A DNA stretch of 64,000 bases from Chthoniobacterales bacterium (lineage in GTDB: Bacteria > Verrucomicrobiota > Verrucomicrobiia > Chthoniobacterales > UBA10450), in assembly GCA_035274845.1 (NCBI GenBank), contig DATENU010000009.1:1-64000 (forward strand), written 5' to 3'. The position numbers and the translations under genes are program-made. The notes under the pieces are model-generated. The model was not told the DNA's origin. It saw nothing but the letters and a program-made list of their open reading frames with translations, and did no database searches. Below are positions 26,661-47,755 of this stretch, one piece after another. The first letter of the stretch is position 1; each line of letters opens with the position of its first letter.

Positions 26661-26720
26661 CGCACGGGCACGCGAACAGCGGCGTTGTCTTATAGCGAAC
26701 ATTTCGCTACGCTTAAGAGT

Positions 26721-26906
26721 ATGAGCGTCAAAGAACAGGTCCTCCAGGCGATTAATCGCCTTCCGTCTGACGCGAGCTTCCGCGATGTCACCGAAGAGAT
26801 CGCCTTCCTTGCGGCGATCAAGGAAGCCGAGCAGGACATTGCGGACGGTCGCCTGATCACCAACGAGCAGATGAAAACTCGGATCGGTGAATGGACCGGA
26901 AACTAG
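26721..26906 (+). CDS. Type II antitoxin (ParD/RelB-like)
   Basis: 61 residues from ATG 26721 (a longer start would overlap non-coding sequence). Mostly helical: VLQAINRLPSDASFRDVTEEIAFLAAIKEAEQDIADG, a layout seen in prevent-host-death and RelB-like partners of ParE toxins. It overlaps the next gene by 16 bases. Predicted to bind the toxin and to repress the pair. Confidence 0.75.
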   Translation: MSVKEQVLQAINRLPSDASFRDVTEEIAFLAAIKEAEQDIADGRLITNEQMKTRIGEWTGN

Positions 26907-27193
26907 TCTGGACCGAGCGGGCTTCGAACGACATCGAAGCGATCGTTCGCTATATCGCGCGGCGCGACCCAGCCGCGTCGGCGCGCGTTGGGTTCGGCAT
27001 TTACGACCGCGCCCAAATTCTTCTCCAGCATCCCGAATCAGGAACGATTCTCGACGAATTAAGAGAGGGCGGGTGGCGCAAACTGATCTTTCTGCGATGG
27101 AAAATCGTCTACACCGTCCGCGGGGATAACATCATCATTGGCCGGGTGTGGCCAGCCGCGATGGGCGAAGCCGACTTCGAGACGCCGCTCTAA
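26891..27193 (+). CDS. ParE/RelE-family toxin
   Basis: 100 residues. The fold pattern is WTERASNDIEAIVRYIARRDPAAS, then GTILDELREGGWRKLIFLRWKIVYTV, ending IIIGRVWPAAMGE, typical of ParE toxins that poison gyrase or RelE-type RNases. It overlaps the antitoxin gene by 16 bases. Which target it has is not visible. Confidence 0.8.
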   Translation: MDRKLVWTERASNDIEAIVRYIARRDPAASARVGFGIYDRAQILLQHPESGTILDELREGGWRKLIFLRWKIVYTVRGDNIIIGRVWPAAMGEADFETPL

Positions 27194-27470: not shown

Positions 27471-27564
27471 CAATTTTCGAATGTCGATTTTCGAGTGGCG
27501 ATTGATTTCTGTATGAGGAAAGACGAATTGACTCCCGTCGAGTTTATTGCTAGGTAGAATAGCG

Positions 27565-27822
27565 ATGGATTCTACCTATTCAGTCACTCAGGCGCAGACG
27601 AATCTGCCACGGCTGATCAAAGAGGCGGCGGATGAAGGGTCCATCGCCATCACCCGGCATGAGGAGACGGTTGCCTACCTGATCTCGCGTGGGCGGATGG
27701 ATGCGATCATGGAGACGTTGGATCTGCTGGGAAATTCGGCGGCGATGAAGGCGCTACGGGATTACGAGATGGGTAAGATGAAGTTTCTGCCGCTCTCGGC
27801 GTTGAATGGAGACAAAGGTTGA
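27565..27822 (+). CDS. Phd/YefM-family antitoxin
   Basis: 85 residues from ATG 27565. MDSTYSVTQAQTNLPRLIKEA is the Phd/YefM DNA-binding N-terminus and AITRHEETVAYLISRGRMDAIMETLD the following strand-helix. It probably represses its own operon and neutralises the toxin encoded next, which overlaps by 17 bases. Confidence 0.88.
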   Translation: MDSTYSVTQAQTNLPRLIKEAADEGSIAITRHEETVAYLISRGRMDAIMETLDLLGNSAAMKALRDYEMGKMKFLPLSALNGDKG

Positions 27823-28114
27823 GCTTTCGGAGCAGGTCGTCCGTTTTGTGGCAAGACGAGCTCCGGAGCCACGCCGGATGTTACGCGAAGCCTTGCGCGC
27901 GCTGAAACGCGAGCGGGGTGATATCCGCGCTCTCGAAGGACCGCTGGAGGATTACCATCGCCTGCGGGTGGGCGGTTACCGGATCATATTTGCTTACAAG
28001 GTTTCCGGGAAGCGCCGAACAATTCAGTGCATCTACGCGGAACGACGAAGCGCGGTTTACGAGACGTTCCAGCAGCTTCTGCGAAAGCACCTCTTGGAAG
28101 CAGGGAAGGAATGA
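27806..28114 (+). CDS. RelE-family toxin
   Basis: 102 residues. Pattern REALRALKRERGDIRALEG, then YHRLRVGGYRIIFAYK and CIYAERRSAVYETF matches the RelE/YafQ fold of ribosome-dependent mRNA interferases, with the basic RxGxYRIIF core. Overlap with the Phd-type antitoxin gene shows a linked pair. It is the second such pair within 1.5 kb; the two are of different subfamilies. Confidence 0.85.
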   Translation: METKVELSEQVVRFVARRAPEPRRMLREALRALKRERGDIRALEGPLEDYHRLRVGGYRIIFAYKVSGKRRTIQCIYAERRSAVYETFQQLLRKHLLEAGKE

Positions 28115-31285: not shown

Positions 31286-31368
31286 CTGTAGCGACGGCGC
31301 TCTGTCGCCGTAAACACGCGTCTCGCAAGCCACCCGTGGTACGCCGACAGAGCGGCGTCGCTACAACA
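31286..31368. repeat. Paired palindromic repeat, family C, copy 1
   Basis: TGTAGCGACGGCGCTCTGTC and its inverted partner ending CGTCGCTACAAC flank a 30-base spacer. The same pair occurs at 47671-47755. Confidence 0.85.
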
Positions 31369-31431: not shown

Positions 31432-31752
31432 ATGAAATATGTGACAGCGATCGCAATCGCGGCGCTCGCGTTTCTCGCGCTCGCGGTCCGGGCGGGCGAC
31501 AAGAAGGGCGCTGCTTCAAAAGTCCATGGGCGCATTCAGTACGTGACCAGTTTCCCTGATTACAAGGTGCAGGCGGTCACGAGTTTCCCCGATCTGCGGG
31601 TCCAGATCGTGACGAGCTTCCCGGACAAGCCGGGGATGTGGCAGATCGTCGATTCGTTCCCCGATTACAAAATTCAGATGGTGAATTCCTTCCCCGACTT
31701 CACCATCCAGTACGTGGAGAGTTTCCCGGGAGCAGCGAAATGGGTCATATAG
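31432..31752 (+). CDS. Exported SFPD-repeat protein, possible 7(1)-knot fold
   Basis: 106 residues from ATG 31432. A Sec signal peptide (MKYVTAIAIAALAFLALAVRA) precedes six short repeats with cores SFPD at 40-43, 51-54, 62-65, 75-78, 86-89 and SFPG at 97-100; spacing is 11, 11, 13, 11, 11. Each repeat reads like (I/V)VxSFPDxxxQ. This pattern resembles, from memory, the small septoil-knot family (DUF6150), a beta protein with a 7(1) knot. The protein should lie in the periplasm. It is followed after 5 bases by another exported protein, and by a third, as one operon. Confidence 0.8.
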   Translation: MKYVTAIAIAALAFLALAVRAGDKKGAASKVHGRIQYVTSFPDYKVQAVTSFPDLRVQIVTSFPDKPGMWQIVDSFPDYKIQMVNSFPDFTIQYVESFPGAAKWVI

Positions 31753-31757
31753 GTCGT

Positions 31758-32732
31758 ATGCGACTTATTTTGAACCTTGCGCTCGCTGCGGTTGCCCTGA
31801 CCCAATCGCAGGGCGGCTTCCCGGTCATTGGGAAAAAAACGGTCGTGCAGTTTCTTTCGGCGAAGGAGAGCCAGCCGCTGATCACGGCCCAGGATGATTT
31901 TGTTAAGCGACTCAGTCCGTTCGATCGCGCTGCTCGACTGAAAGTGGGCCGGCCCGTGTCCGAAGCCGAGTACCTCGCCTTTGTTGGAAAAAACGTTCGG
32001 GATTGGACCGAGCCGGAGATCCAGAAACTTCGAGCGGTTATCGACGAAATCCCGTCGCTCCCGGTTGAGTTCCCGTTTCCACCCGCGATCCAACTCATCA
32101 AGACCACCGGCGTCGAAGAGGGGAACGCCGCTTACACCCGCGGCACCGCCATCATGATTCCGGTCGAGCTATTGGCCAAGCCTCCGCCTGACCTCAAGAA
32201 GCTCGTGTGTCACGAGATGTTCCATATTCTCTCCCGGGCGAACCCGGCCTTGCGCGAGAAGCTCTATTCCGTGATCGGCTTCACCGAGTGCGAGGAGATC
32301 GAGCTTCCTCCTGAGCTGGCCTCGCGAAAGATCACCAACCCCGACGCGCCCCGGAACGATCATTTTATCCAGTTGAAAATTGGGGACGAAAGTTTTCTGG
32401 CCGTCCCGGTCTTGTTCTCGACTTCGGAACAGTACGATGAAAAACGAGGCGGCGAATTTTTCGCTTACCTGAAGTTCCAGTTTCTGGTGGTCGAGAAAAC
32501 CAGCCAACCGGGCCGGCTCAAAGCTGTTTCCCGGACCGGCTCGCCTCGCCTGGTCGAGGCACGGGCCGTAACCGGCTTCTTCGAGCGGATCGGCCGAAAC
32601 ACGGACTACATCATTCATCCGGAAGAAATCCTGGCGGACAATTTTGCGCTTCTGGTCTTAGGCGGAGAGAAGGTCGCGTCGCCGGAGATTTTGGAGAAGA
32701 TGAAAACGATTTTGTTCCCTAAAGTGAAGTAG
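31758..32732 (+). CDS. Exported HExxH metallopeptidase-like protein
   Basis: 324 residues with a signal peptide (MRLILNLALAAVALTQSQG). His152-Glu153-x-x-His156 (CHEMFHILSR) is a zinc-peptidase motif, with downstream acidic HPEEILADNF possibly supplying the third ligand, as in gluzincin-like proteins. The rest is unassigned. It starts 5 bases after the SFPD-repeat gene and is followed 5 bases later by the exported oxidoreductase-like gene, so the three form an operon of exported proteins. Peptidase activity is inferred from the motif only. Confidence 0.7.
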   Translation: MRLILNLALAAVALTQSQGGFPVIGKKTVVQFLSAKESQPLITAQDDFVKRLSPFDRAARLKVGRPVSEAEYLAFVGKNVRDWTEPEIQKLRAVIDEIPSLPVEFPFPPAIQLIKTTGVEEGNAAYTRGTAIMIPVELLAKPPPDLKKLVCHEMFHILSRANPALREKLYSVIGFTECEEIELPPELASRKITNPDAPRNDHFIQLKIGDESFLAVPVLFSTSEQYDEKRGGEFFAYLKFQFLVVEKTSQPGRLKAVSRTGSPRLVEARAVTGFFERIGRNTDYIIHPEEILADNFALLVLGGEKVASPEILEKMKTILFPKVK

Positions 32733-32737
32733 ATCGT

Positions 32738-33718
32738 ATGCGATTTGCACTAGTTCTGCTCGTTTGCGCATTCGCGCTCGCACAAGCCAACGCTTCCAAC
32801 ATGAAGGCCGTCGTCCTGCACGAGTACGGCGAAGACGCGCCTCGGCCGGCACCGAAGGATAACGAGGTGCTGGTACGGGTGATCGCGTGCGGAGTGAATC
32901 CAGCGGATCCGCTCGTGATCTCCGGGCGATTGGCGCAGGAATTTGGAACCCACCTGCCGCTGATTCCCGGTTACGACGTCGCGGGGGTGATCGAGAAGAC
33001 CGGCGCCAAGGTCACAAAGCTCAAGGTGGGCGACGCCGTGTATGGTTATGCGCTCTTCGGCGGCGGTTGGGCGGAGTACGCGGTCCTGGCGGAAAACGAG
33101 GCGGCGCTCAAACCGAAGTCGGTCGGCTTTGTGGATGCGGCGGCGGTGCCGCTGGCGGCGTTAACGGCCTGGCAGGCGTTGCTCGACGTGGCGAAACTGA
33201 GCGCCGGCCAGACGGTGCTTATTCACGGCGGCTCGGGCGGAGTGGGCAGTTTCGCGATCCAGATTGCAAAAGCCCGCGGAGCGCGAGTGATCGCGACGGC
33301 GTCCACCGCAAACCAGGACCTGCTGAAGCAGCTGGGGGCGGATGTCGCCATCGATTACACGAAAACAAAATTCGAAGAGGTGGCGAAGGACGTGGATGTG
33401 GTTCTGGATGCGGTCGGGCGCGATACCCTGGCCCGATCCTACGCGGTCGTGAAAAAGGGAGGAATCATTGCGACGCTGGTGGCGCGGCCAGGCCAAGCGG
33501 AACTCGATAAGCATGGAATCCGTGGCGCGTCGATTTGGGGAAAGCCGGATGCAAGCGAACTGGCTGAGATCACCAGGCTGATCGAGGAAAAGAAAATCAA
33601 GCCGATCGTGAGCGAGGTCCTGCCGTTGAGCGACGCCGTCAAAGCGAGCCAGCAGGCGGCGACCCATCACACGCGCGGCAAAATCGTGCTCAAGATCGCG
33701 GAGGAACCGAAGAGTTGA
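32738..33718 (+). CDS. Exported quinone-oxidoreductase-like (MDR) protein
   Basis: 326 residues. The core is a zinc-free medium-chain dehydrogenase: NMKAVVLHEYG, VKVGDAVYGYA, AWQALLDVAKLSAGQTVLIHG, GGSGGVGSFAIQIAKARGA (Rossmann loop), ATASTANQDLLKQLGAD and KKIKPIVSEVLPLSDAVKA. This layout is that of NADPH:quinone oxidoreductases. Unusually, it begins with a Sec signal peptide (MRFALVLLVCAFALAQANAS), so it would work outside the cytoplasm, where NADPH is not expected. The next Met, NMKAVVL, would give a normal cytoplasmic enzyme if used as start. Confidence 0.85.
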   Translation: MRFALVLLVCAFALAQANASNMKAVVLHEYGEDAPRPAPKDNEVLVRVIACGVNPADPLVISGRLAQEFGTHLPLIPGYDVAGVIEKTGAKVTKLKVGDAVYGYALFGGGWAEYAVLAENEAALKPKSVGFVDAAAVPLAALTAWQALLDVAKLSAGQTVLIHGGSGGVGSFAIQIAKARGARVIATASTANQDLLKQLGADVAIDYTKTKFEEVAKDVDVVLDAVGRDTLARSYAVVKKGGIIATLVARPGQAELDKHGIRGASIWGKPDASELAEITRLIEEKKIKPIVSEVLPLSDAVKASQQAATHHTRGKIVLKIAEEPKS

Positions 33719-47670: not shown

Positions 47671-47755
47671 GTTGTAACGACGGCGCTCTGTCGCCGTAAG
47701 ATCGCGTAAATTACAGGCAGCGCTTGTTACGCCGACAGAGCGGCGTCGCTACAAC
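47671..47755. repeat. Paired palindromic repeat, family C, copy 2
   Basis: TAACGACGGCGCTCTGTCGC and the inverse ending GGCGTCGCTACAAC flank about 34 bases. Same family as 31286-31368. Lies between the cyclophilin and AguB genes. Confidence 0.85.

Follow-up and report, generated by a model that had tools for sequence, protein, structure and literature searches.

To our knowledge, no other known protein has a knot as intricate as that of UU089.1 (Q9PR55) of Ureaplasma. The PDB holds entries 8IWA, 8IWB, 8IWC, 8JRM and 8W68 for this protein, with 8JRM carrying a title that names a 7(1) knotted solution structure. The 7(1) knot, with a core at residues 27-83, was predicted by AlphaFold (PMC9278004) and later confirmed by crystallography (PMC11223836, PMC13352647). 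Its relative P73136 of Synechocystis (112 aa), to which it is 48% identical, has been predicted to form a 5(1) knot (PMC9278004). Two passes of repeats round a central axis are also the layout chosen for the design of (2,N) torus knots (PMC10598012). Previously, the 7(1) knot had a single solved representative, and the 5(1) knot related to it was known by prediction only.

We describe here a small repeat protein encoded in a 64,000-nucleotide stretch of DNA from a Chthoniobacterales bacterium (the window). Judged by its sequence, it is a homologue of the UU089.1/Q9PR55 - P73136 (phrog_6462) family. The knotted family as such is already known; new are its sporadic spread, its carriage by prophages, a variant with a pair of cysteines and a copy from the same genus that has three repeats only.

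The gene, its product and its family

The product of the gene (Table 1) is MKYVTAIAIAALAFLALAVRAGDKKGAASKVHGRIQYVTSFPDYKVQAVTSFPDLRVQIVTSFPDKPGMWQIVDSFPDYKIQMVNSFPDFTIQYVESFPGAAKWVI. It begins with a hydrophobic segment, MKYVTAIAIAALAFLALAVRA, followed by GDKK, by eye a plausible signal-peptidase site, and the mature protein after cleavage would have about 85 aa. The export signal named in the initial annotation is clear by eye, and the relatives also have a hydrophobic N-terminus. The same annotation had described six SFPD-type repeats at a uniform spacing of 11 residues; six near-identical repeats are present, but a central step of 13 residues had been overlooked. The motif SFPD occupies residues 40-43, 51-54, 62-65, 75-78 and 86-89, with SFPG at 97-100, giving a spacing of 11-11-13-11-11 that is common to nearly all complete relatives. 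Among the sequences inspected, none exceeded six units; longer members could give higher knots.

A chance pattern can be dismissed, as 80 SFPD loci were found in many phyla at 44-79% identity, the spacing is shared by nearly all complete ones, and dN is far lower than dS (dN about 0.14 between the window gene and each of its two nearest relatives, with dS values of 1.3 and, close to saturation, 2.2). These comparisons indicate strong purifying selection on a gene that is conserved across phyla.

The link to a small family that includes a 7(1) knot was borne out by homology to the solved Q9PR55 (8IWA/8JRM). A phmmer search of the PDB with the window protein matched this protein (8IWA, E 2.3e-12, residues 34-91), and a profile built from 67 relatives retrieved Q9PR55 at E 1.8e-18 and no other PDB match. 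In the alignment, the knotted core of Q9PR55 corresponds to residues 35-89 of the window protein. The profile of phrog_6462 matches residues 27-100 (E 4.6e-24), and all 67 aligned members match it as well.

The proposed assignment to DUF6150 (PF19647) was not supported by the Pfam check: the window protein has no match at E<=10 and does not reach the 27-bit Pfam threshold, and among the matches listed none of 66 aligned relatives has one at E<=1, with HMM comparisons negative in both directions; the matching profile is phrog_6462 instead. DUF6150 is nevertheless probably a remote, divergent cousin of the SFPD family, as a locus that does match it (L094, 1318-1749) encodes FAD-type repeats and an APGHW step resembling the PGxW step of the window protein. 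Searches of Pfam, NCBIfam and PADLOC gave no family for the window protein. Weak matches shared by several members, such as that to PF22372 (22 members, best E 3e-4), are probably chance results driven by the repeats. A literature search retrieved no paper on phrog_6462 or the SFPD repeat, and the papers searched give neither a function nor a description of the family.

Table 1. Positions of the features described, in window coordinates
Feature	Position	Strand	Remarks
REP-like inverted repeat pair	31291..31361	.	upstream of, not part of, the SFPD gene
SFPD-repeat exported protein gene	31432..31752	+	translation of 106 aa plus stop; homologues; dN well below dS
Signal peptide, about residues 1-21	31432..31494	+	Sec type by eye; hydrophobic N-terminus retained among relatives
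N-terminal lead-in, residues 24-32	31501..31527	+	position 24 is Cys in most relatives, not in the window protein
Six-repeat domain, residues 33-100	31528..31731	+	three repeats, +2 step, three repeats (from spacing)
+2 step (P67, G68) between repeats 3 and 4	31630..31635	+	position 67 is Cys in 44/67 members
Exported HExxH protein	31758..32732	+	starts 5 nt past the SFPD stop codon; leader peptide
Zinc-binding-dehydrogenase-like protein with leader	32738..33718	+	also directly downstream in the same-genus locus L086

Repeat arrangement, structure model and knot order

Two cysteines set 43 residues apart, Cys24 in the lead-in and Cys67 in the step, are both present in 44 of the 67 members, while the loop cysteine (67) is never found without Cys24 (0/67). 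Both are absent from the window protein, which belongs to a branch of 20 rows without the cysteines (SH-aLRT 99). Since only four changes of the Cys-pair state suffice on the tree, a Fisher p-value for the co-occurrence of the two residues overstates the evidence. The tree, built from 77 columns, is poorly resolved, so that a transfer of the gene between phyla is only suggested by it.

Covariation between equivalent positions of different repeats was scored on 101 distinct core sequences, which form 67 clusters at 80% identity; Ser-Ser pairs and the two inserted positions were excluded. The z values were highest for units four and three apart (1.33 and 1.30), followed by those one (0.96) and two (0.60) units apart, while units five apart did not covary (0.17). 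The covarying pairs include residues 44-90, 37-72, 37-83, 47-91 and 59-94. In 99.7% of cluster bootstraps the mean for separations of three and four exceeded that for one and two, and each of the former exceeded each of the latter in the subsets with and without the cysteines, taken separately; a set of 32 strongly non-redundant sequences was too small for these classes to separate. A ring of seven positions that is traversed twice predicts that units three or four apart adjoin, that those one apart are further away and that those two and five apart are the furthest. As the observed order is the predicted one, a two-pass torus-knot layout of the repeats is indirectly supported at the level of sequence covariation. 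In part, the covariation may reflect a lineage-wide preference at equivalent positions, because pairs 11 residues apart are also enriched. We regard the assignment of the window protein to this fold class as highly probable.

Structure prediction, which had been named as a check on the knotted fold, gave a divided answer. With an alignment of 67 rows, AlphaFold2 returned block-mean pLDDT values of 94-97 over residues 31-100 and a model with a single short strand per unit, and four Q9PR55 structures were the only confident matches of this model in Foldseek (prob 1.00); its superposition on the Q9PR55 crystal structure, however, is poor (TM 0.28-0.43, rmsd 9.8-10.1 A). Either the AlphaFold2 model is wrong, or the assumption of a single shared topology is. 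The misfit could stem from another crossing pattern or handedness in the model, from a plain stack, or from families that are further apart than their sequences imply. A search of viral predicted structures with Foldseek gave nothing at E<=0.001, and the model obtained from the single sequence (pLDDT 66) was, like its Foldseek search, uninformative.

The poor superposition, the single short strand per repeat and the covarying pairs 11 residues apart would all suit an unknotted, sequential beta-solenoid with rungs of 11 residues. Such a stack should rank neighbouring repeats first, whereas the covariation is stronger at three and four repeats than at one and two; the clear homology to a solved knot and the 43 residues that separate the Cys pair in most members also argue against it, and we consider a solenoid unlikely. 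A closer competitor shares the two-pass fold and differs only in its knot, which would be 5(1), as in the AlphaFold model of P73136, rather than 7(1). The knot type cannot be read from homology alone, since P73136 is predicted as 5(1) despite its identity of 48% with the 7(1) protein Q9PR55 (PMC9278004), and the Synechocystis salina relative (L053) has six repeats at the spacing of the window protein. On a toy (2,7) curve, which is a geometric illustration and not a protein model, open chains with six units mostly yield determinant 5 on closure and those of at least 6.5 units mostly 7, which would place the family at the border between 5(1) and 7(1), like both members in the literature. Against 5(1), the window sequence aligns across the entire published 7(1) core of Q9PR55, and its domain exceeds that core in length. 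Because a homologue with the same number of repeats is predicted as 5(1) and the model does not superpose on Q9PR55, we give a 7(1) knot in the window protein slightly less than even odds, and 5(1) is likewise a serious candidate, held tentatively.

Distribution, phage carriage and neighbouring genes

The family is widespread but sporadic. It occurs in at least nine phyla (Verrucomicrobiota, Planctomycetota, Pseudomonadota, Bacteroidota, Myxococcota, Cyanobacteriota, Bacillota, Thermodesulfobacteriota and Spirochaetota), and at E<=1e-8 it was found in just 8 of 388 genomes across the phylum of the window and in 6 of 398 across the phylum of a Pseudomonas relative. Four of the eight genomes of the window's genus, its own included, carry the gene, which was found in none of the 29 other genomes examined from the same taxonomic family. 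Leaders also vary: three relatives (L006, L007, L084) have by eye an RR-x-F-L leader, which would fit Tat export of a folded chain, and two (L023, L035) have no evident leader. Three divergent matches to the family profile were noted in one genome of the Verrucomicrobiota (G219, with L118, L122 and L124), and two matches in another genome (G373).

A same-genus locus (L086:1495-1692, genome G006) encodes only three repeats. Relative to the complete members it lacks 35 residues in frame, corresponding to three units plus the +2 step, while the leader and the SFPG end are retained. This may be a naturally unknotted member, a gene in decay or an artefact of assembly.

Thirteen viral contigs encode an SFPD protein, with flanking genes for terminase, portal, minor tail, baseplate hub, tape measure, endolysin and spanin. 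Prophage-like surroundings were seen at loci L101, L102, L103, L105, L106, L110, L112, L113, L132 and L133:3938-4252. The copies there adjoin genes for terminase, tail, baseplate-hub or lysis proteins and are often encoded on the other strand; in a plasmid-borne prophage of Leptospira weilii, the gene stands in line between two baseplate-region genes. A tblastn search of isolated phage genomes with four different members as queries gave no match. Around the window copy, there is no recognisable prophage.

The window gene is followed closely by the gene for an exported HExxH protein (Table 1). Clustering of the neighbourhoods of SFPD loci revealed no conserved partner gene; we read the largest clusters as frames antisense to the SFPD gene and as a mixed group that includes transporter ATPases. 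In three same-genus relatives the SFPD gene follows a gene for an exported amidohydrolase (Pfam), the orthologue of which lies in the window genome on another contig (C10) and not at the SFPD locus. Members of the zinc-binding-dehydrogenase family are usually cytoplasmic, and a leader peptide is unusual for them; the zinc-binding-dehydrogenase-like protein of Table 1 has one in two species (32738-33718 in the window; from about 1700 in L086). The REP-like pair GCGACGCCGCTCTGTCG is present at 31291-31361 and at 47677-47749 and has 41 matches genome-wide at up to one mismatch, compared with none for the reversed control sequence. Elsewhere in the window, two pairs of small genes (26685-27193 and 27547-28114) resemble by eye toxin-antitoxin modules of the RelE/ParE type.

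The operon with an exported HExxH protein that the initial annotation had proposed is real as an adjacency in the window genome, but it is not conserved as a partnership. The gap of 5 nt, the common strand and the leader peptides on both products speak for a dedicated operon in which the HExxH protein has the SFPD protein as its partner or substrate. Yet no relative of the HExxH protein occurs at any other SFPD locus examined, and across 58 related genomes, of which six have each gene, both are present only in G000 and G004, and in the latter they lie on separate contigs; in the three same-genus relatives it is the amidohydrolase gene that precedes the SFPD gene. Since relatives of the two proteins do not accompany each other, we take the adjacency as incidental and a dedicated partnership as extremely unlikely. 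The SFPD protein might instead be a structural or assembly part of a phage that was captured by the chromosome, for which the in-line position in Leptospira weilii and the copies adjoining baseplate-hub genes in Bacteroidales phages can be cited. Most phage-borne copies have a leader peptide, however, and in Bacteroidales the tail genes and the SFPD copies are on opposite strands, while other copies are near terminase or lysis genes, an arrangement expected of cargo and not of a virion part; we consider such a structural or assembly part very unlikely.

Proposed role and comparison with known knotted proteins

The explanation that we favour, and consider likely overall, is that of an exported family member with a two-pass fold and a torus-type knot that serves in binding or shielding at the cell envelope. 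The chain would circle a common axis twice at about 3.5 repeats a turn, which would pack each repeat on those three and four positions onward, and the +2 step would sit where the first pass turns into the second. The chain would close as a torus-type knot, 5(1) or 7(1), the order being set by the extent to which the last repeat and the lead-in at the N-terminus continue the winding. The product would be secreted unfolded via Sec, and the knot would be tied outside the cytoplasm.

No catalytic motif is apparent in the sequence of the window protein, and Q9PR55 is reportedly, in a 2024 structure paper, exceptionally stable and resistant to ClpAP. The mature protein may bind or shield at the cell envelope and would resist proteases and unfolding. 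Prophage copies would then be cargo for lysogenic conversion or superinfection exclusion, and chromosomal copies such as that of the window captured versions. This functional proposal, envelope binding or shielding together with phage cargo, is in itself doubtful. A broader scheme, in which phages carry exported torus knots whose order follows the number of wound units, with the three-unit protein of L086 as a naturally unknotted form, is possible although we would not count on it; if it were true, the purpose of the knot could be tested by comparing natural relatives.

The exported, sporadic and prophage-borne relatives, together with the covariation, would provide independent evidence of selection on torus layouts. 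They also supply many small homologues, with and without the Cys pair, that are probably easily made, and with these it can be asked why the knot persists and how tying proceeds after secretion.

Among known systems, Q9PR55 has the same SFPD units as the window protein, likewise with a step of 13 residues from motif 3 to motif 4; it differs in being 89 aa long, in a third motif that is degenerate and comes with a second +2 step, and in stopping before the sixth motif. For P73136, as judged via the Synechocystis salina relative, the likeness extends to a leader region, six repeats and identical spacing, but that relative belongs to the branch with the Cys pair and the window protein to the one without. 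The PHROGs family phrog_6462 is listed as of unknown function and has no structural or functional annotation; the window copy differs from it in lying outside any recognisable prophage. De novo knotted tandem repeat proteins (PMC10598012) resemble the window family in that two passes of repeats give (2,N) torus knots. They are, however, designed and helical, and their 5(1) designs did not adopt the intended fold, whereas the window family is natural, of beta type and built from units of 11 residues.
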